Positions 1,740 to 23,335 of a stretch of DNA of 23,335 bases are shown in pieces. Position numbers and translations under genes: made by a program. This stretch comes from a virus. The stretch's first letter is position 1, and every line of letters starts with the position of its first letter. The stretch spans positions 1 to 23,335 of IMG/VR virus record IMGVR_UViG_3300030520_000112, one strand, 5' to 3'. A model generated the notes under the pieces. It had not been told where the DNA came from, ran no database searches, and was given only the letters and a program-made list of their open reading frames with translations.

Positions 1740-1787
1740 ACTATGTGTTCGCGCGCGAGCAATTCAGTTTGGTTATGGCCTACGGGC
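1740..1787 (-). promoter_or_regulatory. Putative third late promoter (diverged activator box)
   Basis: On the minus strand 1787-1767 matches the activator box of the two other putative late promoters at 15 of 21 positions, ending in the same CAAAC. After exactly 21 nt comes CATAGT (1745-1740), in the same place as TAGTCT in the other two. Six nt later is the ATG of the exported collagen-like gene. The match is weaker than between the other two copies, and I infer function from spacing and position only. Confidence 0.5.
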
Positions 1788-2346
1788 GAAGGGTGACGGG
1801 GGTTCGGGCAGTCATGGCGTGTAGGCGCGCGATGTAGCGATCGAGAGACGGCTCATGAATGCGCCAGTGACCGAGGACGTTGTCCGTCAGGAACTTGTAC
1901 GCGACCAGGTCTCCCGACTCGATCAGCTGCAAGACGACAGTGCCGCTGCACTCCAGCCGCTTCATCGCGTCCGCGACGAAGATGGTCTGCAAGAACGGGA
2001 ACGGGAGCAGGTCCTCGTCGCGGCGGCGCTTGTGACCAGGCGGCAACTGGGCGCGGCTGTCTGAGATGCCGTAGCGCACGCGCAGGCTGTCGCAGTACTC
2101 GACGATCGAGGTGTATTCAATCTGCCAGATCTTCTTGCCCCGGTTATAGCAGTAGCTGCGCAGCAGGGCGCGCTCACACATCCGCAGCACAGTGCGCAGC
2201 GACACATGCAGGATCGCCGCCGCGCGCCGCGAGTCGATCGTGTTGCTCTTCTGAATCGGCAGGCCGAGCTTCGGCGCAGGACAGACTTCGGGAATGAAGT
2301 CCGCAAACAGCTCGATCTGGTCGTCGCGATCACAGTGTGGGCGCAT
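1780..2346 (-). CDS. Double helix-turn-helix protein, candidate late-gene activator
   Basis: This 188-aa protein is the last gene of the early operon, 3 nt after gemA, with GAGGAG in front of its ATG. It holds two excisionase/MerR-like HTH segments: one near residues 38-95 (SRRAAAILHVSLRTVLRM, then a basic wing ending in an EY-C-D-S-L-R helix), another near 120-178 (FVADAMKRLECSGTVVLQLI, then a GHWRIHEPSLDRYI wing and helix). In Mu the gene right after gemA is mor, the middle activator, followed by C. This protein does not look like Mor/C, but position and DNA-binding character make it the best candidate to act on the repeated boxes at 1767, 14470 and 22728. That role is inference. Confidence 0.75.
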   Translation of the reverse strand: MRPHCDRDDQIELFADFIPEVCPAPKLGLPIQKSNTIDSRRAAAILHVSLRTVLRMCERALLRSYCYNRGKKIWQIEYTSIVEYCDSLRVRYGISDSRAQLPPGHKRRRDEDLLPFPFLQTIFVADAMKRLECSGTVVLQLIESGDLVAYKFLTDNVLGHWRIHEPSLDRYIARLHAMTARTPVTLRP

Positions 2347-2349
2347 TGG

Positions 2350-2883
2350 TCACAGCTCCTCGGGCGCGACGGGTTCGCCTGGCTTCGCGGGGCGCGTCAC
2401 CATGCGTTTCAGCGCCCAGTACACGCGGTTGGCGTCACCCACCGTGCGGATCTGTATCCTTCGCGCGTTGGGGCCGCGCGGCGAGGCCAGAAACGCCTCC
2501 AGGCGGCGCTGGTCCCATCCCAGGCGCTGCATCTCCCGTTGCACGCGGCGGATGTCTGTGTCGCCCACCAGCGTGCTGTCGCGATGCTTCTGGTCATGCC
2601 TGCCTTCGGTGCCAGCCTTCTCCGCCTCGCGGCGCGACTTGCGCGGCCGCTGCGTCTGTTGAGGTAAGGCGACGCCCATCGCGCGCTGCAGGCCGTCGAT
2701 CAGCTTGCGCGCCTCGTCCAGGGTGAGATCGCGGAAGCTGCGGATCGTCCGGCCGGTTGCCTTCGACGCCCAGGCGATCCGCGCCTCGCGGCCGCTGCCG
2801 GCGTCGAGCGAGCGCCGCTCGAACTGACCGTAGAGAACCTGCAGGCGCTTCAGCTGCGCGGGCGTGATGTCGGTAGCGATCAT
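2350..2883 (-). CDS. gemA: GemA-like regulatory protein (DUF1018, Mu gp16)
   Basis: The 177-aa protein begins with ITPAQLKRLQVLYGQF and continues with a DLTLDEARKLIDGL segment, the layout of the GemA/DUF1018 family of Mu-like phages. A charged linker follows (QTQRPRKSRREAEKAG), then a second helical part (VQREMQRLGW, then RVYWALKRMV). In Mu GemA affects host DNA supercoiling and gene expression; that is family knowledge. The ATG at 2883 overlaps the stop of the preceding gene (ATGA), so an upstream extension to 3033 is not needed. Its place near the end of the early operon matches Mu. Confidence 0.8.
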   Translation of the reverse strand: MIATDITPAQLKRLQVLYGQFERRSLDAGSGREARIAWASKATGRTIRSFRDLTLDEARKLIDGLQRAMGVALPQQTQRPRKSRREAEKAGTEGRHDQKHRDSTLVGDTDIRRVQREMQRLGWDQRRLEAFLASPRGPNARRIQIRTVGDANRVYWALKRMVTRPAKPGEPVAPEEL

Positions 2884-3710
2884 AGCCGCACCTCGGAAGG
2901 GGAGACATCGCACCGCCAGAGCTGCTGCACGAAGTTCAGACGGCAATGATCGTGCAGCCTGACTACGCGGCCCCGAATCACGCAAACATAAGTGTCGAGG
3001 AAGCCGATCAGGCTGTTTCCGCAAGAGCCGCATCTGGGCGGAAAATCGTCGCTGCGTTCAAAGCTCAGGTCGATAAACGCCCGCGAACCACTCGATGCTT
3101 CCCAGGCTTCGATGCAAGTCTTGGAACAAAACCAGTGGCCGTGGATGAGCAACGCCATAGGATCCAGAGGGCCAAGACACTGCCCGCAACTCTGCTTACT
3201 TAGGTGGTCTTCCACGCCGTTTGCTGCATTTGCCATCGCAGAGCGGGCAGAGACATCCGGTGATTCCGCGCTTGGCGATGAGCTCCCTCGCCGCGGAGAG
3301 CACCTCTCGCTTGTGCTGCTCGGCGGCGGCGCGGCGGCGCTCGTTGTAGTCGGCACGGCTGCACTTGACGGTTGCGAAGCGGGCTGTGCCTTTGGTTCTT
3401 CTTCCGCATCCGCACTGGCAGACCCGCATGGTGCTTCCCTCTTTTCGTGTAGCCCTGCGCCGAGCAGGCCGTAGCCCGCGATATCTCTGTAAGGCGATTC
3501 GCCAAAGGCGTCGCGATCGGTGGCGATCCGCATCTGCTTGTCGAAGATGCGAACCAGCAGCAGCGCATCGTCCTCGCGCCCTGGCGGAATGCCCGTGGGC
3601 CACAGCATCCGGAGAAAGTCTCCGGCCTTGGCGAATGAGCTGCCGTAGGCCGCGTTCTTCTCGGTCACGAGATCTCCGATCTCCGCGCCCAGCTTTGTAT
3701 AGTCCGTCAT
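2880..3710 (-). CDS. MazG-like N-terminal domain with zinc-binding-like C-terminal region
   Basis: One open frame of 276 codons starts at an ATGA overlap. Residues 1-90 (YGSSFAKAGDFLRMLWP, a DALLLVRIFDKQMRIA helix, then SPYRDIAGYGLLG) resemble phage MazG-like/DUF1599-type nucleotide pyrophosphohydrolases. Residues about 95-158 are low-complexity Ser/Pro/Ala and look like the shadow of the gene at 3196-3429 on the same strand. The last 118 residues look real again, with Cys pairs (CGQC, FCSKTC, CGSC) of a zinc-binding protein, and have their own ATG at 3236. It may be a true fusion or two genes whose intervening stop was lost. No function can be given for the C-terminal part. Confidence 0.6.
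   Translation of the reverse strand: MTDYTKLGAEIGDLVTEKNAAYGSSFAKAGDFLRMLWPTGIPPGREDDALLLVRIFDKQMRIATDRDAFGESPYRDIAGYGLLGAGLHEKREAPCGSASADAEEEPKAQPASQPSSAAVPTTTSAAAPPPSSTSERCSPRRGSSSPSAESPDVSARSAMANAANGVEDHLSKQSCGQCLGPLDPMALLIHGHWFCSKTCIEAWEASSGSRAFIDLSFERSDDFPPRCGSCGNSLIGFLDTYVCVIRGRVVRLHDHCRLNFVQQLWRCDVSPSEVRL
3196..3429 (-). CDS. Small cysteine-rich basic protein nested in another frame
   Basis: A 77-aa frame starts at ATG 3429 behind AGAGGGAAG, a good ribosome site. It has N-terminal cysteines (CQCGCG, then KCSRADYNERRR), a charged helix, and a second cluster (CLCPLCDGKC) before a basic tail. Its codons are almost all G or C at the third position, unlike the overlapping frame here, so I take this as the coding frame of 3196-3429. 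Paired cysteines suggest zinc binding, probably with nucleic acid. It lies inside the longer MazG-like ORF and overlaps the possible start at 3236 by 41 nt. Confidence 0.65.
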   Translation of the reverse strand: MRVCQCGCGRRTKGTARFATVKCSRADYNERRRAAAEQHKREVLSAARELIAKRGITGCLCPLCDGKCSKRRGRPPK

Positions 3711-7757: not shown

Positions 7758-8152
7758 CGGCCGCTCCGGAGAAGCTCACCGCCCTGCGTCCAGACGACGT
7801 AGCAGATTGCGGTGCCGATCAGGAAGGCCACATAGAAGCAACAAATGCAGACGAGTACCCCGAAGAAGCCGCGCACCAGCTTGTCGTATAGCTTCCAGTT
7901 GCGCGCCGTGATCCAAGCCTCGTAGACGTCCAGGCGATCGAAGCAGCGCTCAACCAGGGTGAGGCAGCCTTCGGTGAACCAGTAGACTGCCAGCCGGAAG
8001 GGCATCCAGGATTGATGGAGGTCGATGTGATCGAGGCACCGCTCGATGAGCTTGCAGAAGCCCTCGGCGAGCCAGTAAAGGGAAAGCCTGAACGGTTTGG
8101 ATTCGGCCTCGGGTGTGTGGACTGCATCGGCGTAGGGTTTGTAGTGGGTCAT
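7754..8152 (-). CDS. Membrane protein with internal tandem duplication
   Basis: The ATG at 8152 overlaps the MuB stop (ATGA), giving 132 aa. Two adjacent segments of about 30 residues are copies of each other: FRLSLYWLAEGFCKLIERCL and FRLAVYWFTEGCLTLVERCF, each followed by an acidic D-x-I/L-D-x-x stretch ending in AW or SW. One transmembrane helix follows (GFFGVLVCICCFYVAFLIG). The repeats look like amphipathic helices lying on a membrane. It might be a superinfection or membrane-targeting accessory protein, but no function is known. Confidence 0.65.
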   Translation of the reverse strand: MTHYKPYADAVHTPEAESKPFRLSLYWLAEGFCKLIERCLDHIDLHQSWMPFRLAVYWFTEGCLTLVERCFDRLDVYEAWITARNWKLYDKLVRGFFGVLVCICCFYVAFLIGTAICYVVWTQGGELLRSGR

Positions 8153-9150
8153 GCGACAACGTCCTCTCTTAGTTCCGGTGTCTGCTTGAGTTGAATGCTC
8201 TCGATCGCGTTGAAGAGATCGCGGGCGGAGATGTAGGTGAACTTCTTTGCGACGCGCGTGCCGTCCTTCTCCTCGGTGCGCTGGCCGGTCGACATGCAGC
8301 GGGCGATGAACCCTTCGCACTGCGCATCCGTCAACTGCGCGCCCAGCTCCGCGCGGAGGATCTGCGATGCCTCCGCCTTCGAAGGGCCGTTGAGGTAGTG
8401 CGTCTTGCGCAGCCTGCTGCGCCACTGCTCCATCTGCCAGTGGCTCAGGCGCTGCGTAAGATCGTGCGAACCCGCCAGGATGACGCCGAAGTGCGGGGGC
8501 AGGTCGAGTAGCTGGCGGAGTACTTCGAGACCCTTCCGGCAAAGGTGCTGCGCCTCGTCGACCATGAGGAGCGTGCGCTCATTCGCCAGAAAGAACCGCA
8601 GCTTGCGAAGCATCATGTCGATGTCGCCCCGGCTAGGCAGATCGGCGGCGATGCAGCACTCGCGGAGGAAGTTCTGCGGCGAGTGGTCGATGCGGGCATA
8701 GACATAGACAGCGCGGCCAAGCTGCTTCTCTTTGACCTCCCGCTCGATCTGGCGCAGCGTGTAGGTCTTCTCCGTGCCCGGCGGCCCGTCGACCAGGTAC
8801 GCCGCGCCCTGCTCAAGCGCGGTCAGCGCAGATGCGCGAATCTCCCGGTAAGCCTTCGTCTTGTGCTGGCGTGCCTTGAAGGTGAACTCCGCCGCCATGT
8901 CGTGCATGTCCATGAACTCTTTCGCGGCGGCGCGCATGGCGAGCGAGTTCGACTCCACGGGATGATGCGCGTCGTAGCTGCCGCGCAGAAACATGCCCAT
9001 CGCGGCATAGGAGTAACCGATCGCGCGGCCCATCTCCTCCGTGTTCAATCCCGCGCGCAACATGAAGCTGCGGATCCGCCGCCGCATATCGTCTTCGGGT
9101 TCGAGAGCCATTGCCGCGAGTTCTGTCTTGCGTGCTACCGAGAGTGCCAT
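8149..9150 (-). CDS. MuB-like AAA+ ATPase, transposition target protein
   Basis: This 333-aa protein follows the transposase without a gap (TAG then ATG). An N-terminal HTH (LRAGLNTEEMGRAIGYS) precedes an AAA+ domain with Walker A at residues 122-129 (GPPGTEKT) and Walker B at about 194-199 (LLMVDE), then AQHLCRKGLEVLRQLLD and a sensor-1-like LAGSHD. This is the MuB/TniB layout. In Mu, B binds ATP and DNA, chooses target sites and stimulates the transposase. Odd here is Glu at 127, where the P-loop normally has Gly before Lys; the codon is GAG at 8770-8772. Confidence 0.9.
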   Translation of the reverse strand: MALSVARKTELAAMALEPEDDMRRRIRSFMLRAGLNTEEMGRAIGYSYAAMGMFLRGSYDAHHPVESNSLAMRAAAKEFMDMHDMAAEFTFKARQHKTKAYREIRASALTALEQGAAYLVDGPPGTEKTYTLRQIEREVKEKQLGRAVYVYARIDHSPQNFLRECCIAADLPSRGDIDMMLRKLRFFLANERTLLMVDEAQHLCRKGLEVLRQLLDLPPHFGVILAGSHDLTQRLSHWQMEQWRSRLRKTHYLNGPSKAEASQILRAELGAQLTDAQCEGFIARCMSTGQRTEEKDGTRVAKKFTYISARDLFNAIESIQLKQTPELREDVVA

Positions 9151-11220
9151 CTATACGGTCCCCTGCTGTGTCTGGCGGTACCAGTCAGCGATGTCGTCTG
9201 AGTGAAAGTTCTTGCTCTCCGCGACCTCTGAGTGCGAAGCCGGAGCGCGATGTACGGTTGAATCGCCGACGGCGGCCGGCAGCTGCGCGAGCTGGCGTAA
9301 TGCAGCCTCGGCCGAGATGTTGGCCCCGGTCGCGGAGACCCGCTCCCGAAGGGCGCGGGCAGACTGCTTTACCGCCTTCGCCAGGCCGTTGCGGTTCTGC
9401 ATGAACGTCGCGACATCTCCGCGCGTCTGCGCGTCTGGCGACATCCGGTAGAGCTGCTCGTGCTCAAGCCGACACACGAAGTGCATGTCGCGATCAAGGA
9501 CTGCGGCGAAGCTGGGTTCGAGCGGATCGTAGGCGACGACAACTTCGCGGCCGCTGAGTTCGTGCATTTGCAGTTGCGCTGCCATGTCCTGAATGTTCGG
9601 GACCAGGCGAACACCGCCGAGGGTGATGGCGCAGTTCTGAACCTTGCGCGTCGTGCGCTCGGCGAGCAGCATGGTCAGCATCTCCGGCTCGGGAGCCAGG
9701 CGACGCTCAGGCGATCCGTGCGCGGGAAGCTCGTCCATAAAGCACTGCAGAGGCGTGCGACCGTCCATGCCTTCGCCGCCGTGCGGCTGCCGGTGATACC
9801 ACTGCTCCACCCAGGTCTCGGCGATGTGGATGTACTCGCTCGCCAGCGGAAGGGCGGAGTACTGACCCTGGCCCATCTGCAACAGCTTCGAGTGACGGGC
9901 GAGCGCTTCCGTGGTGTGGTCAGGCCGCAGATGCGTCGCGCCGCCGGTGTAGGTGCGGAACGCCTTGTCGACGCGCTCATGGAACGTCCGGTGATACCGC
10001 TCGATGTGCTTGGACTGCGGGTGGTATGGCTGGCAGAAGGTGACCGGAACTCCGAGGCGTTTCATCACTGAGCTGTTGAGATCGGACCAGCTCGCCTGGT
10101 GCAGCTTGCCCAACGCTTCGAGCTCGTGACGCTCAGCGCCGCCGGCGATCTTCCGGTAGTCCTTGCCGTTGTCGCAGTAGAAGCCTTGCGGGATGCCGTA
10201 CCGCGTGAGCGCCCGTAGCAGCGCGCGCTTGATGCTGTTGCTGCTGCCTTCCTCACAGAAGGCGACGCCGACGACGTAACGCGCACAATGGTCGAGCAGC
10301 GTAGTCATCCGGAGCCGCATGTGCCGCAGATCCCGCGCTCCGAAGAGATCGTTCTGAACCAGCGTGTCCACGATCGCGTGATCGGAGATCCACATGTGGT
10401 TCGCCGGTTCCGTGTAGCCGCGTTTGATGTAAGGGGCGAATTGGGCGTCGTACCGCTTGCGTCCTTCGCGACCCATCACCCGCATCGATGGAGAGACCTC
10501 CTGGGGGTTGTCCAGGAAGCGGCGGATCGTGTGATAGCTGGGCTCCGGCACGCCCAGACTCTTAGCTCGCTTACAGGCCATCTCCCAGGCAACGGTCTTC
10601 GATTGGGACGGGGAATCGGGCGTGCCGATGTAGACCGATGCGGCGATGTCGGCCAGCTCCCGGTTCTCCGCCGCCCAGCTCGACTTGCCTTTGCCCTCGC
10701 GTACCTTGCGCACCAGGCCGAATCTTCCGTCTTTATCGAAGGCCTGCTTCCACCGCCAGATGGTAGCGCGGTGGATGCCGTGCGTCTCGGACAGGTAGCA
10801 GCTCATCAGCTCGCTGGTGGTGACGTTCCGGCCGTCCTTGAGTCTGAGCTGCGCGAAGCGATCGCGCGTGGTTGGGTAAGACACATAGTCGATGAGCGGT
10901 TGCAGGACCTCCAGCTTCTTGGCCGCCTCCAGTTCCTGCTCCGGCGTCATCGCTACGCGAACGAGCTGGCCAGCACCAGCAGGCATGTTCGAGGTGCCCG
11001 CGAAGAGGGGCGTAAGAGACAGTGGAGTCCCGGCGGGGCGCTTGTTCAGGTGCTCTTCTTCGGTGCTGGCCAGCTTGGCACGCTCTCCTGGGGTAAGGGA
11101 GGCGGCGGAATATCGGGTCGCGCCGTTGAGCGCCTGCGACGGTATACGACGGCGGAAGAATGTGCGGCGGGAGATGCATGCCGCCTGGCAGTACTCGTCA
11201 AGGGAGAGCCACTGTTTCAT
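9151..11220 (-). CDS. MuA-like DDE transposase
   Basis: The 689-aa protein is the length of Mu A (663). Residues 1-45 form a Mu-type winged-helix end-binding domain (MKQWLSLDEYCQAACISRRT). A second HTH region near 105-245 includes THGIHRATIWRWKQAF. The RNase H-like core has the acid triad D280 (WISDH), D350 (YCDNGKDY) and E407 (HPQSKHIERYH), with spacings of 69 and 56 residues, close to Mu A. The C-terminal part includes the Mu-transposase beta barrel (GGVRLVPN, EVVVAYDPLEP). It cuts phage ends and joins them to target DNA. Its start overlaps the preceding stop (ATGA). Confidence 0.95.
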   Translation of the reverse strand: MKQWLSLDEYCQAACISRRTFFRRRIPSQALNGATRYSAASLTPGERAKLASTEEEHLNKRPAGTPLSLTPLFAGTSNMPAGAGQLVRVAMTPEQELEAAKKLEVLQPLIDYVSYPTTRDRFAQLRLKDGRNVTTSELMSCYLSETHGIHRATIWRWKQAFDKDGRFGLVRKVREGKGKSSWAAENRELADIAASVYIGTPDSPSQSKTVAWEMACKRAKSLGVPEPSYHTIRRFLDNPQEVSPSMRVMGREGRKRYDAQFAPYIKRGYTEPANHMWISDHAIVDTLVQNDLFGARDLRHMRLRMTTLLDHCARYVVGVAFCEEGSSNSIKRALLRALTRYGIPQGFYCDNGKDYRKIAGGAERHELEALGKLHQASWSDLNSSVMKRLGVPVTFCQPYHPQSKHIERYHRTFHERVDKAFRTYTGGATHLRPDHTTEALARHSKLLQMGQGQYSALPLASEYIHIAETWVEQWYHRQPHGGEGMDGRTPLQCFMDELPAHGSPERRLAPEPEMLTMLLAERTTRKVQNCAITLGGVRLVPNIQDMAAQLQMHELSGREVVVAYDPLEPSFAAVLDRDMHFVCRLEHEQLYRMSPDAQTRGDVATFMQNRNGLAKAVKQSARALRERVSATGANISAEAALRQLAQLPAAVGDSTVHRAPASHSEVAESKNFHSDDIADWYRQTQQGTV

Positions 11221-12612: not shown

Positions 12613-12824
12613 GCAGCACGCTCCGCATCGCCAGCCTTACGCTGTTGCTGCCGAATCTTCTTCTCAAGGGCTTTCATTACTCGCTGCGAGGTGCTCAGGC
12701 CGAGAAACACCCTCCGAACATGCTGCGGGGTCACATTCAATTCGCGCGCAAGTTCCGAGAAGTTTGGGCGGAGCTTCTGCGCTTTTCGGATCTGCGCAAT
12801 TACGGGGCTAAAATGGGTGCTCAT
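12609..12824 (-). CDS. Small HTH protein, Ner-like, first gene of early operon
   Basis: The 71-aa protein starts at ATG 12824 behind GAGCGAGG. Residues 20-45 (NFSELARELNVTPQHVRRVF) are a helix-turn-helix. Its size, first place in the operon and divergence from the repressor match Ner of Mu, which turns down early and repressor transcription. The longer frame to 13049 runs across the repressor gene and is rejected. Its 5' end overlaps the proposed repressor start on the other strand by 12 nt. Confidence 0.75.
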   Translation of the reverse strand: MSTHFSPVIAQIRKAQKLRPNFSELARELNVTPQHVRRVFLGLSTSQRVMKALEKKIRQQQRKAGDAERAA

Positions 12825-14380: not shown

Positions 14381-14449
14381 TAGACTTCCGCTGAACCACA
14401 GGTATCTCCTAATTCCCCCCCCGGCGGGCCACGCCGGGGGGCTTTTTTT
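14381..14449 (+). ncRNA. Possible short RNA unit: TAGACTTC element plus terminator
   Basis: TAGACTTCCGCTGA (14381-14394) repeats, with one change, the element at 14248. If it is a -10 box, a transcript starting near 14393 would end at the terminator about 55 nt later. No ORF lies in between. The unit is the second of two like it in tandem. No transcript evidence exists, so this is a low-confidence proposal. Confidence 0.3.
14415..14449 (+). terminator. Second rho-independent terminator, upstream of late promoter
   Basis: CCCCCCGGCG and CGCCGGGGGG form a 10-bp stem with a GGCCA loop, followed by C and seven T residues (14443-14449). It lies between any rightward lysogenic transcript and the lysis genes and probably shields them from read-through. 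Confidence 0.85.
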
Positions 14450-14469: not shown

Positions 14470-14530
14470 CCCGCCAAGCTGACCCCGAACGCCAGATGCA
14501 AACAGGTATCCGGCACGGCTCTCTTAGTCT
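14470..14530 (+). promoter_or_regulatory. Putative late promoter before lysis genes (Plys-like)
   Basis: 14470-14503 matches 22728-22761 at 32 of 34 positions, including an identical stretch ending GCCAGATGCAAAC. After 21 nt comes TAGTCT (14525-14530), as at the other copy. There is no good -35 hexamer, as expected for an activator-dependent promoter: the box would cover roughly -56 to -35. In Mu, C-activated promoters stand before lys and before I; the two copies here stand in the same two places. Confidence 0.7.
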
Positions 14531-14623
14531 TCGAGTCGTGGCGGAAGCCGCGCACCTCCCATTCTTTTCCATGAAAGGAGTGGGAGGATTCCAGAGCAGG
14601 AAGGGCCACACGACAAGCGCCTC

Positions 14624-15187
14624 ATGGGTGGCAAGTCGAGTGGCCTTCCACCCTCTCTCCGCGCGCCTCAAGCCGCTCGGAGATCAGCTTTGGCCACGCC
14701 CCAAGAACTCGACAACCTGCAACACACCGTCGTCCCCGCGCAGCTGGCCATGCACAAGTGGCTGGTGCCGGCTTCGGTGACGCTCGCACAGTGGACCGCC
14801 GAATCCGCATGGGGACTCTCCCAGCTCGCCCGCCGCGCGAACAACTTCTTCGGCATCAAGGCAGTGCAGGGTCAGGAATACATGGAGTTCTCCACGCGCG
14901 AAGTGGTGCGCGGCCGCAGCGTGATGGAGCTGGCTGACTTCGCCCGCTATCCGTCGCCGATCGAGAGCTTCGATGCACACGGCAAGCTGCTGGCCACGCT
15001 TACGCGATACCAGCCGGCAATGCGCGTGCGGCAGGACATCGCCGCTTTCTGCGCCCAGCTTTACATCGACGGCTACAGCACAGAGCCGGAGTATGCAGAC
15101 CGCCTGCTCACGCTGATCCGCGAGCACAACCTCACCCGGTACGACGTAACCCCGCAGCCGGATAAGCCAGCTGCGGTCGCAGCTTAG
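14624..15187 (+). CDS. Endolysin, glucosaminidase family
   Basis: The protein (187 aa from ATG 14624) has the glucosaminidase/FlgJ-type core: AQWTAESAWG with the likely catalytic Glu60, then ARRANNFFGIKA, FARYPSPIESFDAHG and the C-terminal GYSTEPEYADRLLTLI. It should cut the peptidoglycan glycan strands at lysis. It has no signal peptide, so it needs a holin. The start is not settled: ATG 14624 lacks a close ribosome site, while TTG 14690 has GGAG 6 nt before it and gives a neat start right before the domain. It is first in the late lysis cluster, 94 nt after the putative promoter. Confidence 0.88.
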   Translation: MGGKSSGLPPSLRAPQAARRSALATPQELDNLQHTVVPAQLAMHKWLVPASVTLAQWTAESAWGLSQLARRANNFFGIKAVQGQEYMEFSTREVVRGRSVMELADFARYPSPIESFDAHGKLLATLTRYQPAMRVRQDIAAFCAQLYIDGYSTEPEYADRLLTLIREHNLTRYDVTPQPDKPAAVAA

Positions 15188-15217
15188 AGCAGTTTGAATC
15201 AGCATCACGGAGGCAAC

Positions 15218-15841
15218 ATGATTTTTAGCAACCTGAAGATGAACCCAGGCTCAGCGATCGCGCTGGTCCTCTGCGTAACGATGTTGGCCCTCAGCACAAC
15301 CGGCTGCACGCCGGCACAACAGCAAGACGCCAAGGCAATCGTCGCGAAGGTCGCAGCCTATGAGCCTTCTCTCGTCACTGCGGTAGACACGCTGGCTTCG
15401 ACCGTCGCACTGTTTGTGCCCACCGACGCCGCGCTGATCACGGCATCGCAGGCGATCTTCGACGCGTCCGCCGCCCAGCTGCAGACGCTGTGCGCCGCTT
15501 ATGCCGCGACCCCGACTGCGAGCACGCTAGCAACGATCGAGAGTGTGCTGACGACGTTGTTGAACACGAACGCCGCTCAGTTCCTTGCAGCCGCGCACAT
15601 CAGCAATCCTGCCTCCGTCGCTACGGCGAAGCTGGCGATCGGTGGAGTCCGCACGATCCTGCTGCTGATGGATGCAGCGCTGCAAGGGACTCAGACTGCT
15701 GCGCAGACCGCAGCTTCGCAACAGGCTCGGCTAATGAAGCTTCATGACTTTGTGCCCTATCTCGACAAGCACCAGGTCGAGCAGGCGACGGGTGTCCCCT
15801 TCCGCGTGGCTGTGGGCTTTGAGGAAGCGCGGGGCTTCTAA
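15218..15841 (+). CDS. Lipoprotein in lysis cassette
   Basis: ATG 15218 follows CGGAGG at 4 nt, better than the TTG at 15194; this gives 207 aa. The N-terminus is a lipoprotein signal: AIALVLCVTMLALSTTGC, with lipidation at the Cys. The mature part is Ala/Thr/Leu-rich and almost all helical, with a hydrophobic segment (GGVRTILLLMDAALQG). It could be an outer-membrane spanin analogue or other lysis accessory protein because it follows the endolysin, but it shows no spanin signature. Confidence 0.7.
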   Translation: MIFSNLKMNPGSAIALVLCVTMLALSTTGCTPAQQQDAKAIVAKVAAYEPSLVTAVDTLASTVALFVPTDAALITASQAIFDASAAQLQTLCAAYAATPTASTLATIESVLTTLLNTNAAQFLAAAHISNPASVATAKLAIGGVRTILLLMDAALQGTQTAAQTAASQQARLMKLHDFVPYLDKHQVEQATGVPFRVAVGFEEARGF

Positions 15842-15871
15842 GTAGTTGCGGACATGCGCACAGGCGGGCGC

Positions 15872-15920
15872 GCCCTGCCGGCCGCTGTACTCGGATGGAA
15901 TCTGAGGTCAACGGCAGGGC
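15872..15920 (+). repeat. 9-bp inverted repeat between two late genes
   Basis: GCCCTGCCG (15872-15880) pairs perfectly with CGGCAGGGC (15912-15920) across a 31-nt loop. It ends 33 nt before the Acb2-like start codon. There is no T-run, so it is not a typical terminator; it could be an mRNA processing or stability hairpin. Confidence 0.4.
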
Positions 15921-15953
15921 ACCGCAACCCAACCAGGCAACAGGAGCAGGACG

Positions 15954-16208
15954 ATGGCGGAACTCACCGAACGGCAACTCGAAGATCTCGATCACGCCTA
16001 TGGGTATCACGCCCCGACGCGTGACCAGATCGCGCAGTACCAGGCCATCAACGAGGCGGCCAAGAACTTCGAGCGGGTTGTCCTGGAGAGCTGCCCGACA
16101 AGCGCAGACCGCACCTTCGCCACAAGGCAGATCCGCGACGCCAGGATGACGGCAAACCGCTCGATCGCGCTCCACCGGCCGGACAGGCCGGGCGGCATCC
16201 TCGGATGA
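15954..16208 (+). CDS. Acb2/Tad1-like small protein, candidate cyclic-nucleotide sponge
   Basis: The 84-aa protein starts at ATG behind AGGAGCAGGAC. It has the helical-hairpin pattern of the phage Acb2/Tad1 hairpin family as I know it: HAPTRDQIAQYQAINEAAKN as first helix, then a turn with CPTSADR and a second helix reading RQIRDARMTANRSIAL (residues 58-73). Known Acb2 and Tad1 proteins bind the signalling nucleotides of CBASS and Thoeris defence and so protect the phage. Its place in the late region beside the lysis genes fits a phage accessory gene. I assign family from sequence pattern only; ligand and activity are inference. Confidence 0.65.
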   Translation: MAELTERQLEDLDHAYGYHAPTRDQIAQYQAINEAAKNFERVVLESCPTSADRTFATRQIRDARMTANRSIALHRPDRPGGILG

Positions 16209-16323
16209 CGGGGTGGTGGGTTAGTACCAACTAAATGCACCGCAGCCCTGCACGGTATTTTCCGGCGCGAGGGCGGGGCGGTCTACAGCAGGGTCGGGCT
16301 GAGAGTTTGACGGGAGTTTGGGC

Positions 16324-16743
16324 ATGGCGAAGTGGCTGAGCGGAAAGAAGACTTACATCCTTGCAGCGGTTATGTTCCTGGTGCTGATCGTCTTGCTGGC
16401 GCTGGGCAGGCTCTCGGTGGAGCTGGCCTTCGAGGTGCTCGTCTTCGCCGCGCCGTGCTTCGCCGCCACCTACCGCGACGCCCTGCAGACGCACCATAGT
16501 CAGGTGATGGACGTGCTGCTCGACGCGGTCGACGCTGGGGTTGCGCTGCGAGCTCACAACTATGCAGCGATCGAGGGGATCGCGCTGAAGGCCGCTCCGG
16601 ATGCTGAGTCTCTGGTCGTCGCGCTGACCCCTGCGCAGGCAGCCCAGACGGCCGTCCTAATACCGACGGGACCGGCAGGCCCACAAGGACCACAAGGACC
16701 GGCAGGCATCTCCGCCGTTTCGCCGGCGACGGGAGGGGCTTGA
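16324..16743 (+). CDS. Two-helix membrane protein with collagen-like tail, holin candidate
   Basis: ATG 16324 lies 7 nt after GGGAG (a TTG at 16318 is possible), giving 139 aa. Residues about 8-30 (KTYILAAVMFLVLIVLLALG) and 33-50 (ELAFEVLVFAAPCFAATY) are membrane helices, followed by a helical cytoplasmic or periplasmic part. The C-terminus holds a short Gly-X-Y tract (PTGPAGPQGPQGPAG). Two membrane helices near an endolysin fit a holin; the collagen-like tail is unusual for one. Confidence 0.6.
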   Translation: MAKWLSGKKTYILAAVMFLVLIVLLALGRLSVELAFEVLVFAAPCFAATYRDALQTHHSQVMDVLLDAVDAGVALRAHNYAAIEGIALKAAPDAESLVVALTPAQAAQTAVLIPTGPAGPQGPQGPAGISAVSPATGGA

Positions 16744-17258
16744 TGTTCCTGGCACTGAAGAAGCTCTTCGAGGAAGAGCGGCAGTCGATGTGGGGCAAGC
16801 TCTTCCAGGGCGCTGGCCTGAGCGCGGGCGGCGTGGCCGTCTATGAGTTCGCCGAGTTCTTCAAACAAAACCCCGTGGCATCGCTTGCCGTCGTGCGGGA
16901 GTTCGGGCCGATCTTCGCGCTGGCCGTGCTGCTTACGGCGCTGGTGAACCGGCTGATCGGCGTGCTCGATAAGTTCGCGACATCGAGCCAGGAGACGGCG
17001 GACGCAATCAAGCTGATCGCCACCAAGGACGATCGCCAGGCGGAGCGCTTCGAGCTGTTGACGCAGTACAGCGCGCAGACCAGCGAACAGGTCGCGGAGG
17101 CGATGAAGGGATTCGCCGCCCAGCAAGCGTTGCAGAACAGTGCTCTCGACCGGATCGAACGGAGACAGAGCTTGATGCAGGAGAAGTTCGATCAACTTTC
17201 GACCGCGCCCGCGCCCGCGCGACCGGCGCTCGTCGTGGATAAGGGGGCAGCACAGTGA
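16743..17258 (+). CDS. Membrane plus coiled-coil protein, DUF2730-like position
   Basis: The 171-aa protein starts at a TGATG junction with the previous gene. It has one clear membrane helix (FGPIFALAVLLTALVNRLIG), a weaker one before it (LSAGGVAVYEFAEFF), then a long charged coiled coil ending in a Pro/Ala tail. Mu-like phages have a one-helix coiled-coil protein (DUF2730, Mu gp25 region) at this place, before the terminase genes. It might instead take part in lysis as a second holin component. Confidence 0.6.
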   Translation: MFLALKKLFEEERQSMWGKLFQGAGLSAGGVAVYEFAEFFKQNPVASLAVVREFGPIFALAVLLTALVNRLIGVLDKFATSSQETADAIKLIATKDDRQAERFELLTQYSAQTSEQVAEAMKGFAAQQALQNSALDRIERRQSLMQEKFDQLSTAPAPARPALVVDKGAAQ

Positions 17259-17566
17259 GCATGAGCGCGACCCACATGAAGCGGTACCGGACGGTGTTGC
17301 TGCAGCTGCTGAACGCGAACCACCGGGCGCAGCACGCCCGCATGGATCACGTAATGCTGGCGATGGCAATGCGCGGCGTGGGCTGCGGCGTGGGCGAGAA
17401 TGATGTGCTGACGCTGCTGCAGGACCTGTGCGATCGCAGCTTCGTGCGCTACAACGAAAAGAAGAACCGCCTCACGCACGATACCGAGATCTCGCAGATT
17501 GAGATCACGGCAGCCGGCCGGGACATCCTGGAAGGGACGCGCACCGACGGAGCGGTCGAGCTGTGA
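17255..17566 (+). CDS. Winged-helix-like protein before small terminase (Mu gp26 position)
   Basis: GTG 17255 overlaps the previous stop (GTGA); ATG 17261 is an in-frame alternative. The 103 aa look like a small winged helix: RYRTVLLQLLNANHRAQHAR, then NDVLTLLQDLCDRSFVRY and an ITAAGRDILEGT ending. Similar approx. 100-aa proteins lie between the DUF2730 and DUF3486 genes in many Mu-like phages. The role in packaging is not known. Confidence 0.7.
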   Translation: MSMSATHMKRYRTVLLQLLNANHRAQHARMDHVMLAMAMRGVGCGVGENDVLTLLQDLCDRSFVRYNEKKNRLTHDTEISQIEITAAGRDILEGTRTDGAVEL

Positions 17567-18327
17567 ACGGGGCGGCGGCCGGGCCGCGCAAGTCTGCGAG
17601 CAAGCCCCGGCCGCGCACGGGCGACAAGCGCAAAGCGAATCAACCATTGAAGATCGACAAGCTTCCCGTCGAGGTGCGCGACGCAGTTCTCTATCTGCGC
17701 AACCAGGGCTTGAAGACGTGGATGGAGATCGAGGAGCTCTCCGCGCTGAAGTACGAGCCGAAGTGGAAGGGTACGCTGGGCGGCTTTGTGGATTGGAACT
17801 CGCTGCCGCTGCATCTGCTCGAACTCTTTCCCGACATGCGGCTGCCGCATACAAGCATCCATCGCTGGTACGATCTGCGCTTCGACCAGGTGCGCCGTGA
17901 GGTGACGCAGCGCAGCGATGCCGCGCGCAAGATCGCCGAGGCATTCGCCGCCTCGGCCGTGGACAACGCCGACGAGGCCGTGATCAACGCCGCGCGGGAC
18001 ACGTTGATGTCCATCCTCGCTGAAGACGGCTCATCCGACAGCCGCATCGTCGCGACCAAGGGACTGTTGAAGCTTAGCGAGGTGATGTCGAAGGCGCGGA
18101 CGAACGAGATCCGCGAGCGCATCGTCTCCGTCGACGAGCGCCGTGTTGCGCAGCTTGAGAAGGACGCAGAGCTGCGCCGCAAGCGTATGGAGGTCGAGAC
18201 CGAGACCGTTGCGAAGAAGATGACGCGCGGCGAGCTGACCCTGGAAGACATCAACAAGCTGCGCCGCAACACCTTCGGCCTTCCGCCGCTGCCGTCTGAG
18301 CCCGCTGCCGCTGCACGGGCGGTGTAG
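17563..18327 (+). CDS. DUF3486 protein, Mu gp27-like small terminase
   Basis: Starts at GTG 17563, overlapping the previous stop (GTGA). After a basic N-terminus it has the family start KIDKLPVEVRDAVLYLRNQG, an HTH-like part ending in RLPHTSIHRWYDLRFDQV, a helical middle, and a long coiled coil (ERRVAQLEKDAELRRKRMEV). The ending is Pro/Ala-rich. The family acts as the small terminase, recognising phage DNA for headful packaging. The gene directly before the large terminase is where Mu has it. Confidence 0.85.
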   Translation: MNGAAAGPRKSASKPRPRTGDKRKANQPLKIDKLPVEVRDAVLYLRNQGLKTWMEIEELSALKYEPKWKGTLGGFVDWNSLPLHLLELFPDMRLPHTSIHRWYDLRFDQVRREVTQRSDAARKIAEAFAASAVDNADEAVINAARDTLMSILAEDGSSDSRIVATKGLLKLSEVMSKARTNEIRERIVSVDERRVAQLEKDAELRRKRMEVETETVAKKMTRGELTLEDINKLRRNTFGLPPLPSEPAAAARAV

Positions 18328-18329
18328 GC

Positions 18330-19796
18330 GTGAGTCTCCCTGCAGTTCTCCAGCTTCGCCCATACCAGCAGCGTTGGATCGACGACGAGTCGCGATTCAA
18401 GCTGGCAGTGAAGTCCGCACGTATCGGCTACAGCTATGCGACCGGGCTCGAGGCCATCTTCGATTGCCTCCGGCATCCCAAATCGACCTGGACGGTGCTC
18501 AGCGCTTCGAAGCCTCAGTCCGTCGAGTTTGTGCAGACATGCAAGGACAACATCGAGCTGATGGGCGCGACGGCGCAGCTCTTCCAGGATGAGGACTTCG
18601 ACGACAACCTGAGCCTGACGCTCGGCTCCATCGTGGGTATCGTGCAGCGGATCTCGTTTCCGAACGGTAGCCGCATCATGGCTCTCCCCGCCAATGCCCG
18701 CACCGCGCGCGGATACCCTGGCAACGCGGTGCTCGATGAGTTCGCCCATCACGAGGACAGCTATGCGATCTGGGCGGCGGTGATACGGCAGACAGCGCTC
18801 GGCAACAGTAAGCTGCGCGTGCTCTCAACTCCCAACGGGGAGCAAGGTAAGTTCTTCGACCTGGCGACCAGGCTGAAGCTGACGGATGGGGTCGCTCCTG
18901 ACCCGAACCCAGTTCATGACGGCCCGTGGACTGGACATTGGATCGACGTTCACCAGGCCGTGGCCGAGGGCTGCCCGATCAACATCGACGAGATGCGTTC
19001 CGGCGTCGACGACGACGACACCTGGCGGCAGGAGTTCTGCTGCGAGTTCCTGAAGGCCGCTGGTGCCTGGCTGCCGTTGGAACTGGTGAGCAGTAATGAG
19101 CATGACGACGCAACCACCGAGATGCTGCCCAGCTTCCAGTCTCGCGGTCCTCTGTATGGCGGCATCGACGTCGCCAGGCATCACGACGCAACCGTGATGT
19201 GGATCGACGAGAAGATCGGCGATGTCTATTGGACGCGCATGGTGCTGTATATCTATGCCGCCACCTTCCCGGACCAGTACAAGCGTCTCGACCCCTTCGT
19301 GAAGATGTGCGACCGCGTGGCGATCGACGCGACAGGCATGGGTATCGCGCTTTACGACCTGTTGAACCAGACGAACGAGGGTCGCATCGTCGGTATCAAC
19401 TTCGCCGGCACCAACCAGGCCGTGAAGCAGGACAAGACCGTGCAGTCTACCAAGCACGACGCGGAGAACACGAGCGTGCGCATGAAGGTGGATCTAGCCA
19501 TGCGCATCAAGAAAAAGCTGGAACTGGGCAAGAGTCGCCTGCCGCGCAACGCCCAGGTGCGCACGGAGCTGATGGCTGTGAAGCGCGAGGCCACGGCGAC
19601 CGGCGTTACCTTCGACGCTCCGCGGATCGAGGTTGACTCCGCCGTAGCCGGCGGCGGCAAGAAGAAGCGCTACGCCCACGCCGACGCTTTCTGGGCGAAG
19701 GCGCTGTGCGACTGGGCGGCAGCAGGGAACGGGCCGGTACTCGGTATGACGAAGAGCGAGAAGCCCAGTATGCAAAGCCTGATGAAAGGGTTCTGA
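18330..19796 (+). CDS. Large terminase subunit, Mu gp28-like
   Basis: The 488-aa protein starts at GTG 18330, 2 nt after the previous stop. The ATPase part has a Mu-type P-loop variant at 28-39 (KSARIGYSYATG) and Walker B at 133-138 (AVLDEF). The nuclease part has an RNase H-like fold with acidic residues D280 (YGGIDVARHHDAT), D333 (RVAIDATGMGIA) and a C-terminal D in YAHADAFWAKA. It should pump and cut DNA during headful packaging together with the small subunit and portal. Confidence 0.93.
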   Translation: MSLPAVLQLRPYQQRWIDDESRFKLAVKSARIGYSYATGLEAIFDCLRHPKSTWTVLSASKPQSVEFVQTCKDNIELMGATAQLFQDEDFDDNLSLTLGSIVGIVQRISFPNGSRIMALPANARTARGYPGNAVLDEFAHHEDSYAIWAAVIRQTALGNSKLRVLSTPNGEQGKFFDLATRLKLTDGVAPDPNPVHDGPWTGHWIDVHQAVAEGCPINIDEMRSGVDDDDTWRQEFCCEFLKAAGAWLPLELVSSNEHDDATTEMLPSFQSRGPLYGGIDVARHHDATVMWIDEKIGDVYWTRMVLYIYAATFPDQYKRLDPFVKMCDRVAIDATGMGIALYDLLNQTNEGRIVGINFAGTNQAVKQDKTVQSTKHDAENTSVRMKVDLAMRIKKKLELGKSRLPRNAQVRTELMAVKREATATGVTFDAPRIEVDSAVAGGGKKKRYAHADAFWAKALCDWAAAGNGPVLGMTKSEKPSMQSLMKGF

Positions 19797-19798
19797 CA

Positions 19799-21244
19799 AT
19801 GGACGAAGAAATCGAAATCCCCGCACTGCCGCCCGCTGGCGAGATCGTATCGACGCAGGCGCTGCTGAATACGCAGATCTCGCTCTACCGCAACATGCTG
19901 GCGTTCAGCGGCACGCGTAACCCGTCGATCATCTGGGACCAGATGGTGCGCGACGACGGCTCCGCGATGCTCTACTACCGCGAGCTGGAGGAGAAGGACA
20001 CAGACGTTGCGAACGCGCTCGACACGCTGAAGGAGGCGGTGCTTGAACGCGACTATGCGATCGAGCCGTTCGACGACTCTGGCCCGGCGCAGGACGTCGC
20101 AGACTTCGTGAAGGCGCAGCTGGCGAACGTGCCGAACCTGGACGGCGTAGTGGACAACCTGCTCGATGCGCCGGGCTACGGCTTTAGCGTCGCGGAGGTG
20201 ATGTACGACGTGAGCATGGGTCAGGCCAACCTGGTGCGGATCGAGGACTGCCCGCAAGAGCTGTTTCTCTTCGGCGATCGCTTCACCCCGCAGATCGGGC
20301 CGATGCAATTCCTGAACTCGCCGTATGCCTCGAACGGCGTGCTGGTGCCGGAGCAGAAGTTCCTGATCTTCTCGCACCGGCCGCGCAGCCGCAACCGCAT
20401 GGGCAGGCCGCTGCTTCGCAGCATCTTCTGGTCGAGCTGGATGAAGCGCAACATCCAGCGGCTATGGATCCGCTTCGCGGAGAAGGGACCTGGCACGGCC
20501 GTGGTGCGCTATGCAGACGGCGACAATCCGGCGCTCGCGCAGCAGGCTGCGCAGCTCGCGCAATCGATCATCGAAGAGGTCGCAGTCGGCGTGCCGATGA
20601 ACTTCGAGTACGACAAGGAACTGCTGACGATCGCGCGCGCCCAGGATCCCGCTGTCTATGAACACTTCTTCGAAGCGATGCAACTGGACATCATCCGCCG
20701 CATCCTGGGCGAGACGCTGACCAGCTTCGGCGGCGAGAAGGGCACCGGCTCGAAGGGCATGGGAGACACCCACAGCGACACCAAGGACACGAAGGCGGTG
20801 CGACTGTGCAAGATGACGCAGGGCGTCATGAACGATCAATTGATTCGACCGCTGGTGCTGTGGAACTTCGGGCCGAAGGCTCCCATGCCGCGCTGGCAGT
20901 ACGACGTGAAGGAGCAGGAGGACCTGACGAAACGCCTGGTGATCGATTCGGGCGTGCAGCGCCTGGGCCTGGCCCTTACTGAGAGCTACGTCCGCGGCAA
21001 GTACCAGGTACCAGCTCCCGACGCCGGAGATGTGGTGCTGCAGCCGAACGTGAACGCGGCGCAGGTCGCGATCGCGGACACGACGACGGCCAGCTTCGCA
21101 GAAGGGGCGGCGCTGGCTGAACAGGAGATGGCAGAGTATGACCGCGTGCTCGATGAGCTGCGGGCGGATTCGACCCGCATCTTTCGCAACCGCATCAACC
21201 AGGTCGCGAGCGCGGTGACTCCGCCTGCCGGGGTAGTGAAGTGA
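19799..21244 (+). CDS. Portal protein, DUF935 family (Mu gp29-like)
   Basis: Start ATG 19799 lies 2 nt after the terminase stop; the frame extends back to 19706 within the terminase gene but this extension is a shadow. The 481 aa hold DUF935 features: LYRNMLAFSGTRNPSIIWD, VANALDTLKEAVLERDYAIE, YGFSVAEVMY and GRPLLRSIFWSSWMKRNIQR. It forms the dodecameric ring through which DNA enters. Order terminase-portal-F is as in Mu. Confidence 0.93.
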   Translation: MDEEIEIPALPPAGEIVSTQALLNTQISLYRNMLAFSGTRNPSIIWDQMVRDDGSAMLYYRELEEKDTDVANALDTLKEAVLERDYAIEPFDDSGPAQDVADFVKAQLANVPNLDGVVDNLLDAPGYGFSVAEVMYDVSMGQANLVRIEDCPQELFLFGDRFTPQIGPMQFLNSPYASNGVLVPEQKFLIFSHRPRSRNRMGRPLLRSIFWSSWMKRNIQRLWIRFAEKGPGTAVVRYADGDNPALAQQAAQLAQSIIEEVAVGVPMNFEYDKELLTIARAQDPAVYEHFFEAMQLDIIRRILGETLTSFGGEKGTGSKGMGDTHSDTKDTKAVRLCKMTQGVMNDQLIRPLVLWNFGPKAPMPRWQYDVKEQEDLTKRLVIDSGVQRLGLALTESYVRGKYQVPAPDAGDVVLQPNVNAAQVAIADTTTASFAEGAALAEQEMAEYDRVLDELRADSTRIFRNRINQVASAVTPPAGVVK

Positions 21245-21435
21245 ATGTGAAGGCCCATCGCGCGCTGCTCCGTCTCAACAGCCTTCTGCTGTGGCAAAAC
21301 ATAAAGCTGCGCAGAACGATCTCGCGGCTACATAGGTTGCGGCTGGAAGAGCTGAGGCGTGGCGTGCGCGTAGCGTGCGCACCGCGCGCGCCGCTGCTGT
21401 GTATCGCACCACCGAGCAACAAGGAGCAGCTATGA
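21241..21435 (+). CDS. Small basic hypothetical protein
   Basis: A 64-aa frame coupled to the portal stop by GTGA and to the next start by ATGA. It is Leu/Arg-rich (LLRLNSLLLWQNIKLRRTI) with a basic helix. No family. Only the tight coupling on both sides argues it is translated. Confidence 0.5.
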   Translation: MNVKAHRALLRLNSLLLWQNIKLRRTISRLHRLRLEELRRGVRVACAPRAPLLCIAPPSNKEQL

Positions 21436-21632
21436 GCAACCCGAACCATGACATCATCATTCACGCCGCGCGCCGCCTGCTCAACGAGCTCGACCGGCAC
21501 AGCGTTCCCGAAGTTCTGACCAGCGACGCCGCGCGGAACGACATTGAAAACGCGATCAAGCAAGTCAAGTATGCATTCCAAACGATCGACGATGGAGATC
21601 GCTCCAACGCCGGCCACGGGCAGGTGCAGTGA
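21432..21632 (+). CDS. Small helical hypothetical protein
   Basis: The 66-aa protein starts at ATG 21432 behind AAGGAGCAGC, a good ribosome site, overlapping the preceding stop. It is helical and acidic/basic mixed (HDIIIHAARRLLNELDRHSV, then ARNDIENAIKQVKYAFQTI). No known function; it lies in an insertion of small genes between portal and F. Confidence 0.6.
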   Translation: MSNPNHDIIIHAARRLLNELDRHSVPEVLTSDAARNDIENAIKQVKYAFQTIDDGDRSNAGHGQVQ

Positions 21633-21872
21633 GTGAGTAAGCGAGACTGGAAGCCTATCTCCGAGCAGGCTGCAGCTGCCGCAACGCAGCTCGGCCATAC
21701 GCTCGGAGAGTTCACTCATCCGTACCGGAACGCGACCATGAAGCGTGCAGATTGCCCAACATGTCGGGGAGTCTGCTGGGTCTACTTCACGCGTACGAGG
21801 GGATTCACTGCTGGAGGCTCTGCCTTGAGGTTCGGCTGCACTAACTTTCGCCCTGCGGAGAATCGATCATGA
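21633..21872 (+). CDS. Small hypothetical protein with Cys motif
   Basis: GTG 21633 directly follows the previous stop; the 79-aa frame ends in an ATGA overlap with the head gene. It contains CPTCRGVCWVYFTRTRG and a later FGCTNF, a possible zinc site. No family recognised. Confidence 0.55.
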   Translation: MSKRDWKPISEQAAAAATQLGHTLGEFTHPYRNATMKRADCPTCRGVCWVYFTRTRGFTAGGSALRFGCTNFRPAENRS

Positions 21873-22717
21873 TCCATCACGCGAGCAGCGACCAGGAGAA
21901 GATCGGCGATCTGCTCGCGCGCCACCTCGCTGCGGAGAACCTGCTGGGCCGCACGCAGATCGTGCGCGACGTGCATCGCAAGACGGGCAAGGTTGTGCCG
22001 ATCTCGATGGGCTCGCGCTTCAAGAGCACGCTGAAGCACACCCAGTTCGACGACGGCGACCTGGTTGACGACGACGATATCGATGCGTCGATCGGCTTCA
22101 GCCTCAAGCTTCCAGCCAATGGCAGCGCGAACTATCTTCGCAGCCTTACACCGGTCACCAAGGATATCTACGACGGGCTCTCCGCGCAGTACAAGCGCGA
22201 CGCCTTCACCATCGCAGGCGTCACCGATCGGCGGCTGATCGAGAAGGTGCGTGACGAGCTGGCCGACGTGATGGAGAAGGGCGGTACGCGCGCGGACTTT
22301 GAGAAGGCCGTCGCTAAGATGACAACGGAAGCCGGCGCATCGCAGATCACGGCCTTCACGCTCGATACCGTCTTCACGACGAACATGCAGAAGGCGTACT
22401 CGCTTGGCCGCTACGAGCAGATGACGGAGCCGGAGGTCGCGGAGGCGCTCCCTTTCTGGCAGTACATGACCGTGGGCGACGATCGCGTGCGGCCTGAGCA
22501 CGCAGTGCTCGATGGCTTCCAGGCGCGCGTGCAGGATCCCGTGTGGAACAAGATCTATCCGCCCAATGGATTCAACTGCCGCTGCATCGTGATCGCGCTG
22601 CTGGCCAGCGAAGCGGATGACAGCGCGAACGAGCCGGGCTACGCGCGCCTCCCGCTGCTCGCGCAGCTGAAGGTGCCTACGCCTGGCTTTGCCAAACCGT
22701 TCCCGGTCGCGGCATAG
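21869..22717 (+). CDS. Phage head morphogenesis protein, Mu F-like
   Basis: The 282-aa protein has the hallmark of the Mu F / SPP1 gp7 family at residues 204-240: DDRVRPEHAVLDGF, then DPVWNKIYPPNGFNCRC. Before it is a helical part (TAFTLDTVFTTNMQKAYSLG). The family is a minor head component needed for capsid assembly. It is shorter than Mu F (about 430 aa), lacking much of the C-terminal part. The N-terminus has an acidic run (DDGDLVDDDDID). Start coupled by ATGA to the gene before. Confidence 0.9.
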   Translation: MIHHASSDQEKIGDLLARHLAAENLLGRTQIVRDVHRKTGKVVPISMGSRFKSTLKHTQFDDGDLVDDDDIDASIGFSLKLPANGSANYLRSLTPVTKDIYDGLSAQYKRDAFTIAGVTDRRLIEKVRDELADVMEKGGTRADFEKAVAKMTTEAGASQITAFTLDTVFTTNMQKAYSLGRYEQMTEPEVAEALPFWQYMTVGDDRVRPEHAVLDGFQARVQDPVWNKIYPPNGFNCRCIVIALLASEADDSANEPGYARLPLLAQLKVPTPGFAKPFPVAA

Positions 22718-22727
22718 CCCGCCATCT

Positions 22728-22788
22728 CCCGCCAACCTAACCCCGAACGCCAGATGCAAACCCCTTTATAGATACAGCCCTTTAGTCT
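22728..22788 (+). promoter_or_regulatory. Putative late promoter before gene I (PI-like)
   Basis: 22728-22761 is the second copy of the 34-nt box (32 of 34 identical to 14470-14503), with the same 21-nt gap to TAGTCT (22783-22788). Seven nt later is the GTG start codon of the protease gene, so the message may be leaderless. The copy lies in the short intergenic gap after F, the place of PI in Mu. Confidence 0.7.
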
Positions 22789-22795
22789 CCGTGCT

Positions 22796-23335
22796 GTGAG
22801 CAAGCTGGCCAACAAGTGGATCGATATCTTCCGCGTGGGTAACTACGGCGAGAAGGGCAACTTCACTGAGGCCGACATCGATCGCGTCGTGCAGAACTAC
22901 GATCCCGCAGCGCACGAAGCTCCTGCAACGATCGGGCACCCGAAAGACAACCTTCCGGCGTATGCGTGGGTATCGGCGCTTCGGCGATCGGGCGATCTAC
23001 TGCAAGCGCAGTTCAGCCAGGTAGATCCGGACTTCGAGTCGATGGTCTCGCAAGGCAAGTTCAATAAGCGTTCCGCATCGCTCTACAAGCACCCGGAGAC
23101 GGGCAAGGTTGTCGGACTTCGGCATGTGGCGTTCCTCGGTGCGCAGCCGCCCGAGGTCAAGGGTCTTAGACCGATTCAGTTTCACGATGCAGGACAGGTG
23201 TCGGCCGAGGTCGACTTCCAGGAGGTTTCAATGTCGCAGGAAAATCAGAGCTTGTTTGAACGCTTCATGGCCAACTTCGAAGAGAAGTTCGGTAAGAAGG
23301 AGACCACGAACTTCACCGAAGCACAGGTGAAGGAG
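22796..23335 (+). CDS. Mu I-like capsid protease/scaffold, C-terminus outside window
   Basis: The frame is open from GTG 22796 to the edge (180 codons). The N-terminal part (KWIDIFRVGNYGEKGNFTEA, then YDPAAHEAPATIGHPKDNLP) and LRHVAFLGAQPPEVKGL are typical of Mu gpI-type prohead proteases, with a candidate His in IGHPKD and Ser in KRSASL. It processes head proteins during maturation. From residue 146 a scaffold-like helical part begins, with its own ribosome site and ATG. No ribosome site lies before the GTG, in line with a leaderless message. Confidence 0.85.
   Translation, partial: MSKLANKWIDIFRVGNYGEKGNFTEADIDRVVQNYDPAAHEAPATIGHPKDNLPAYAWVSALRRSGDLLQAQFSQVDPDFESMVSQGKFNKRSASLYKHPETGKVVGLRHVAFLGAQPPEVKGLRPIQFHDAGQVSAEVDFQEVSMSQENQSLFERFMANFEEKFGKKETTNFTEAQVKE
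23220..23335 (+). CDS. Nested in-frame scaffold start (Mu Z-like), C-terminus outside window
   Basis: AGGAGG (23220-23225), the best ribosome site in this part of the window, stands 5 nt before ATG 23231, which is codon 146 of the protease frame. The product would begin MSQENQSLFERFMANFEEKF. In Mu, the scaffold gpZ is made from such an internal start in gene I. That the strongest site is inside the gene suggests scaffold is made in excess of protease. Confidence 0.7.

Follow-up and report, generated by a model that had tools for sequence, protein, structure and literature searches.

Matched direct-repeat boxes ahead of the lysis and protease genes point to a BldC-like late activator in a Mu-like transposable phage

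The late genes of the Mu-like phage analyzed here are likely to form a regulon in which a phage-coded, BldC-like activator binds direct repeats head to tail and drives two promoters, Plys ahead of the endolysin gene and PI ahead of the protease I gene. The likely activator is the product of the last gene of the early operon (Table 1). The window, by which we mean the whole stretch of DNA analyzed (23,335 nucleotides of an IMG/VR virus record), is that of a Mu-like transposable phage, as it carries Mu A/B-type transposition genes along with Mu-type head genes; terminase and portal genes are also present on the plus strand.

Table 1. Coordinates of the features of the window discussed in the text
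Feature	Position	Strand	Remarks
Candidate late activator gene	1780..2346	-	Tandem BldC/excisionase-like winged helices; last early-operon gene, just after gemA
GemA-like gene	2350..3033	-	Weak Pfam match (E 0.014); kept in relatives; upstream neighbor of candidate activator gene
Mu-like transposition genes	8149..11220	-	B 8149-9150, A 9151-11220
Regulator-like genes	11447-12130 and 12127-12612		
cI/S24-like repressor gene	12558-13571		
Intrinsic terminator, strong	14417..14441	+	Just upstream of box 1
Box 1 (lys promoter)	14470..14503	+	18-bp direct repeats at about 14472-14489 and 14490-14507
-10 TAGTCT, lys promoter	14525..14530	+	Predicted start about 14537; TANNNT at same spacing in relatives
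lys leader RNA	14538..14689	+	Hairpin 14555-14587, CCAGAGC 14591-14597, hairpin 14599-14649
Endolysin gene	14690..15187	+	First late gene past box 1; has a glucosaminidase domain
Mu F-like minor head protein gene	21869..22717	+	PF04233; upstream neighbor of box 2
Box 2 (protease I promoter)	22728..22761	+	18-bp units at about 22730-22747 and 22748-22765
-10 TAGTCT, I promoter	22783..22788	+	Start predicted at about 22795-22796, on the GTG or beside it
Protease I (head maturation protease) gene	22796..23335	+	phrog_976; runs off the window

A preliminary description of this DNA had noted two 34-bp boxes in noncoding DNA, one before the endolysin gene and one before the protease gene, each followed by TAGTCT at a distance of 21 nt and neither accompanied by a -35 hexamer, and all of these observations were borne out. 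The boxes are identical at 32 of 34 positions. Box 1 follows the terminator, with box 2 taking up the 78 nt from the stop codon of the F-like gene to the GTG of protease I. The box core, 21 nt and TAGTCT occur in this arrangement exactly twice on the two strands of the window, versus none expected in shuffled sequences, and a sigma-70-like promoter pair was found at neither box. One might suppose that the boxes are operators through which a repressor, such as the product of the S24/cI-like gene located 0.9 kb upstream of box 1, silences the late promoters in the prophage. We consider this very improbable, as each box is a site upstream of a -35-less promoter, where an activator would be expected, and the repeats are direct, with a 9/18-bp period, rather than inverted; cI-type dimers usually use inverted repeats.

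In both copies a GTG, missed in the preliminary description, is positioned exactly 7 nt past TAGTCT (14538 and 22796). Since the GTG start codon of protease I comes right after the -10 element and has no Shine-Dalgarno sequence, the protease I message is probably leaderless, a feature that appears to be conserved in the clade of the window. Two features agree with the transcription starts predicted earlier: a conserved leader begins at the one near 14537, and the apparently leaderless GTG lies at the one near 22795. A GTG located 7 nt after the -10 element and lacking a Shine-Dalgarno sequence also begins the I genes of L018, L019, L024-L026, L028, L031 and L032. In lys promoters of phages that have the single-domain form of the candidate activator (see below), a GC-rich inverted repeat, perfect or nearly so and with a 3-nt loop, lies between the box and the -10 element (L051:9814-9830, L079:152-174, L065:9652-9674, L088:9789-9805 and L062:9797-9815).

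About 40 phages have a conserved leader between lys and its promoter. In order, it consists of a small 5' hairpin, a second hairpin that carries GAAAGGAG near the loop, a near-invariant CCAGAGC and a third hairpin. Copies include those of L018 (about 9550-9680) and L019 (about 2505-2650), and others precede lys in L049, L060, L066, L088 and further phages. The second hairpin covaries in 25 leaders (score 0.429 versus 0.164 in shuffles, 0 of 500; at most 0.134 when slid), which were picked for a recognizable stem, a choice that favors the paired percentage. When 40 leaders were aligned by MAFFT with no anchor, RNAalifold reported no structure; with the second hairpin as anchor it did report one. 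No Rfam family matched the leader at or above its gathering score. Conservation of the leader supports the predicted start site of the lys promoter, and the leader may have a role in antitermination or in translational control of lysis timing. Two other readings of the leader were dropped: a leader peptide, which reads well in L018, L019 and L033 and whose frame is lost in the window and other phages, and a hammerhead-type ribozyme, whose core is not conserved. The endolysin probably starts at the TTG at 14690, which is preceded by GGAG and is preferred by inference from homologues; a longer open reading frame from 14624 is less likely. Further along the late region, a small protein encoded at 15954-16208 (plus strand) has an Acb2/Tad1 hairpin domain (PF24729, E 2.4e-11) and is likely an anti-CBASS/anti-Thoeris nucleotide sponge.

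Because copies of the exact box are nearly absent elsewhere, relatives were gathered from viral metagenomes through the F protein and endolysin, and the resulting records are mostly fragments. A search for CCCGAACGCCAGATGCAAAC, which the preliminary description had proposed for related genomes, returned one near-identical contig from viral and genome collections and otherwise single near-chance matches; the exact letters are thus not shared, but the pair, the spacing and the period are conserved. In relatives, the box is located about 51-57 nt ahead of a TANNNT-like -10 element. The I promoter of the nearest clade has a YCAAGCT-like motif, TANNNT 51 nt from the start of the motif and, after 7 nt, usually GTG, and the box of L018, L025, L029, L031 and L032 is divergent, yet the spacing of -10 element and start codon is kept. 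Counted from the start of the -10 element, the conserved columns are CAA (-50 to -48), T (-45), C (-42), T (-37) and CA (-32, -31). The pattern YCAASYT-N44-TANNNT had nine matches in 14 full relative records, all at lys or I promoters, and the reversed control pattern had three in the same 14 records. Scattering of the repeat had been named as an observation that would count against a regulon, and in the records searched the pattern was confined to these two promoters. Neither the strict pattern nor a weight-matrix scan found a third comparable site in the longer records of relatives. Of the boxes expected before lys, I and P homologues, those before lys and I were found, and no further site, such as one before P or mom, appeared in those longer records; the window itself ends before P.

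The box before lys and the box before I match one another within each phage. In seven genomes, the true pairing of lys and I boxes was the best of 5040 permutations at -56 to -28, and the same test on the flanks (-90 to -62 and +13 to +41) was not significant. Over 25 genomes, the match averaged 15.6 within a genome versus 9.1 between genomes (0 of 20,000 permutations), these pairing statistics being computed without tree correction for kinship. Among the 25 are members of a second group that is more distant and whose boxes are quite different; in L106, a member of this group, two of the 37 nt preceding lys differ from those preceding I. An xAxxxT hexamer precedes I at exactly the lys spacing in 16 of the 25 genomes (chance about 1/16), and the hexamer departs from this simple rule in the other nine, in two of them by 1 nt; GAAGAT or a similar hexamer is used in the I promoters of the second group. 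Given the within-genome matching and the hexamer spacing shared by lys and I, the promoter architecture is kept as the recognized sequence changes, which is the behavior expected of a site that tracks its own regulator. That 34 bp are nearly identical within one genome could also suggest a side effect of a recent duplication, of recombination or of packaging, such as a module-exchange boundary or a cos/pac-like site. This is extremely unlikely, however, given that 25 genomes have such pairs at these two genes, each time with a different sequence, at a fixed distance to the -10 element and with flanks that do not match.

The putative regulator is a protein of two fused HTH_17 winged helices of the BldC/excisionase type. 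An AlphaFold model of the product has two winged helices (pLDDT 84, pTM 0.71), and a Foldseek search with a single domain gave a probability of about 1.0 to BldC chains, and similarly to Pukovnik Xis, with whole-chain E-values that were not significant. The HTH_17 winged helix with its BldC-type fold places the product among BldC-like DNA-binding proteins. L019 and L024 likewise have a tandem winged-helix gene behind gemA, and 25 of 31 records contain homologues, which have either a tandem form (about 185-196 residues where fully read) or a single-domain form (85-89 residues in the cleanest cases). There was no match in L091, a 35-kb record carrying the lys leader, nor among 50,697 named phage records, and no late activator of this kind was found in the literature searched, which was mostly open access. 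Its position and its correlation with the boxes point to this product as the presumptive activator. Directly downstream of its gene is a tail fiber gene (3-1733, minus strand), which has a collagen-like repeat region with 9-bp DNA repeats at 711-898; in Mu, the tail fiber gene instead closes the late region.

Repeats within the boxes give autocorrelation peaks at 18 and 9, and the period differs with the form of the candidate activator. Lys boxes of tandem-activator phages have a signal at lag 18 (z 7.2) and not at lag 9 (z -1.0), with a smaller extra peak at lag 20 (z 3.3), and lys boxes of single-domain-activator phages have a signal at lag 9 (z 8.6; 18 appears as a multiple). The flanks of the boxes had no 9/18-bp signal in either class. 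Label permutation reproduced the association of tandem form with 18-bp period and single form with 9-bp period in 10 of 20,000 trials (p = 5e-4), a test for which some boxes had been inspected before it was formally set up and which carries no tree correction for kinship. After similar boxes were removed, 10 tandem and 5 single genomes were left, and z was 5.7 and 5.6, respectively. Of the copies before I, those of single-form phages agree with this split (z 5.6), and those of tandem-form phages show the 18-bp period weakly (z 2.6). The boxes of four genomes were read from stand-ins (L079 for L078, L056 for L104, L058 for L059, and L022, which is the L019 record), and the duplicate filter applied at the leader end had retained L079, L056 and L058. 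The phages with a single-domain form may belong to one lineage, in which case domain number and box period would not be fully independent. BldC binds 9 bp per subunit on direct repeats, head to tail (PMC5859096), and a period that tracks domain number would be expected if, as in BldC, 9 bp are recognized per domain. The periodicity is thus consistent with targets that are direct repeats of 9 bp per domain.

A further possibility is that the late promoters hold as described and that they are activated by another phage protein, such as a different regulator from the early operon or the repressor region, or by a very divergent Mor/C protein, with the HTH_17 gene being excision-like or involved in replication control. 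The window does have more regulator-like genes, and HTH_17 proteins are frequently annotated as excisionases, but we find this reading unlikely, as the period of the boxes tracks the number of winged helices and a Mu-like phage that moves by transposition does not evidently need an excisionase. Moreover, the candidate gene occupies the place of the activator genes of Mu, which sit after gemA. The Mor/C family profile (PF08765) had no match in the window or in 27 relative records, and pure membership in the Mu C regulon was therefore rejected. The likeness to Mu Plys and PI that had been proposed stands by analogy, as an activator-type site shared by lys and I promoters with a non-consensus -35 region, but does not extend to a Mor/C activator.

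We thus return to the BldC-like protein as the probable activator. In the early phase the long leftward operon would be read, and its last gene would make the activator. Each winged-helix domain would read about 9 bp, and two tandem protomers, with four domains, would lie head to tail over about 36 bp of each box, from about -65 to -30. A site at -56 to -35 had been suggested previously; an upstream site of the activator type fits, although its predicted extent is somewhat longer. The bound activator would help host RNA polymerase to use the -10 element TAGTCT without a -35 element at Plys and PI. Plys would then start expression of the lysis and DNA-packaging genes, and PI that of the protease and downstream virion genes. 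One-domain activators would pair with boxes of 9-bp repeats, and two-domain activators with boxes of 18-bp repeats. RdfS, which has the same fold, is known to activate transcription (PMC11963761).

On balance, we favor a history in which this large and diverse group of uncultured Mu-like phages swapped Mor/C for BldC-like activators, domain duplication re-coded the operators from 9 to 18 bp, and each phage came to have a private specificity at exactly two late promoters. Such a late-gene switch would serve environmental Mu-like phages that have no detectable activator of the Mu type, and these phages would provide a natural series of a rare kind, where the period of an operator reveals how many DNA-binding domains its regulator has. 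Having two matched sites and one candidate activator per phage may allow BldC-like specificity to be decoded from sequence. If the proposal is true, the phages would hold private and possibly mutually orthogonal activator-promoter pairs.

The system is like the C-dependent regulon of Mu (Plys, PI, PP and Pmom) in that the lys and I promoters have a poor -35 region and share a site, which in Mu is a match of 10 bp common to these two promoters (PMC4461284), and in that the activator gene, here a candidate, closes the early/middle block. Unlike in Mu, the candidate activator has one BldC-like winged helix or two in tandem, no Mor/C homologue was detected, its putative site is made of direct 9/18-bp repeats with a specificity that varies from phage to phage, only two promoters were found, and the protease message is apparently leaderless. 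RdfS and Pukovnik Xis (PMC11963761, PDB 4j2n) have a fold in common with the candidate, both oligomerize on DNA and RdfS activates promoters; these proteins are, however, recombination directionality factors of elements with tyrosine integrases, whereas the phages described here carry Mu-like transposases. The candidate resembles Streptomyces BldC (PMC5859096) in its winged-helix fold, its 9-bp direct repeats and its presumed head-to-tail arrangement. BldC is a developmental regulator of its host that has one domain and AT-rich repeats, whereas the candidate is phage-coded, often has two fused domains, pairs with GC-richer repeats, and is placed as an activator of late genes.
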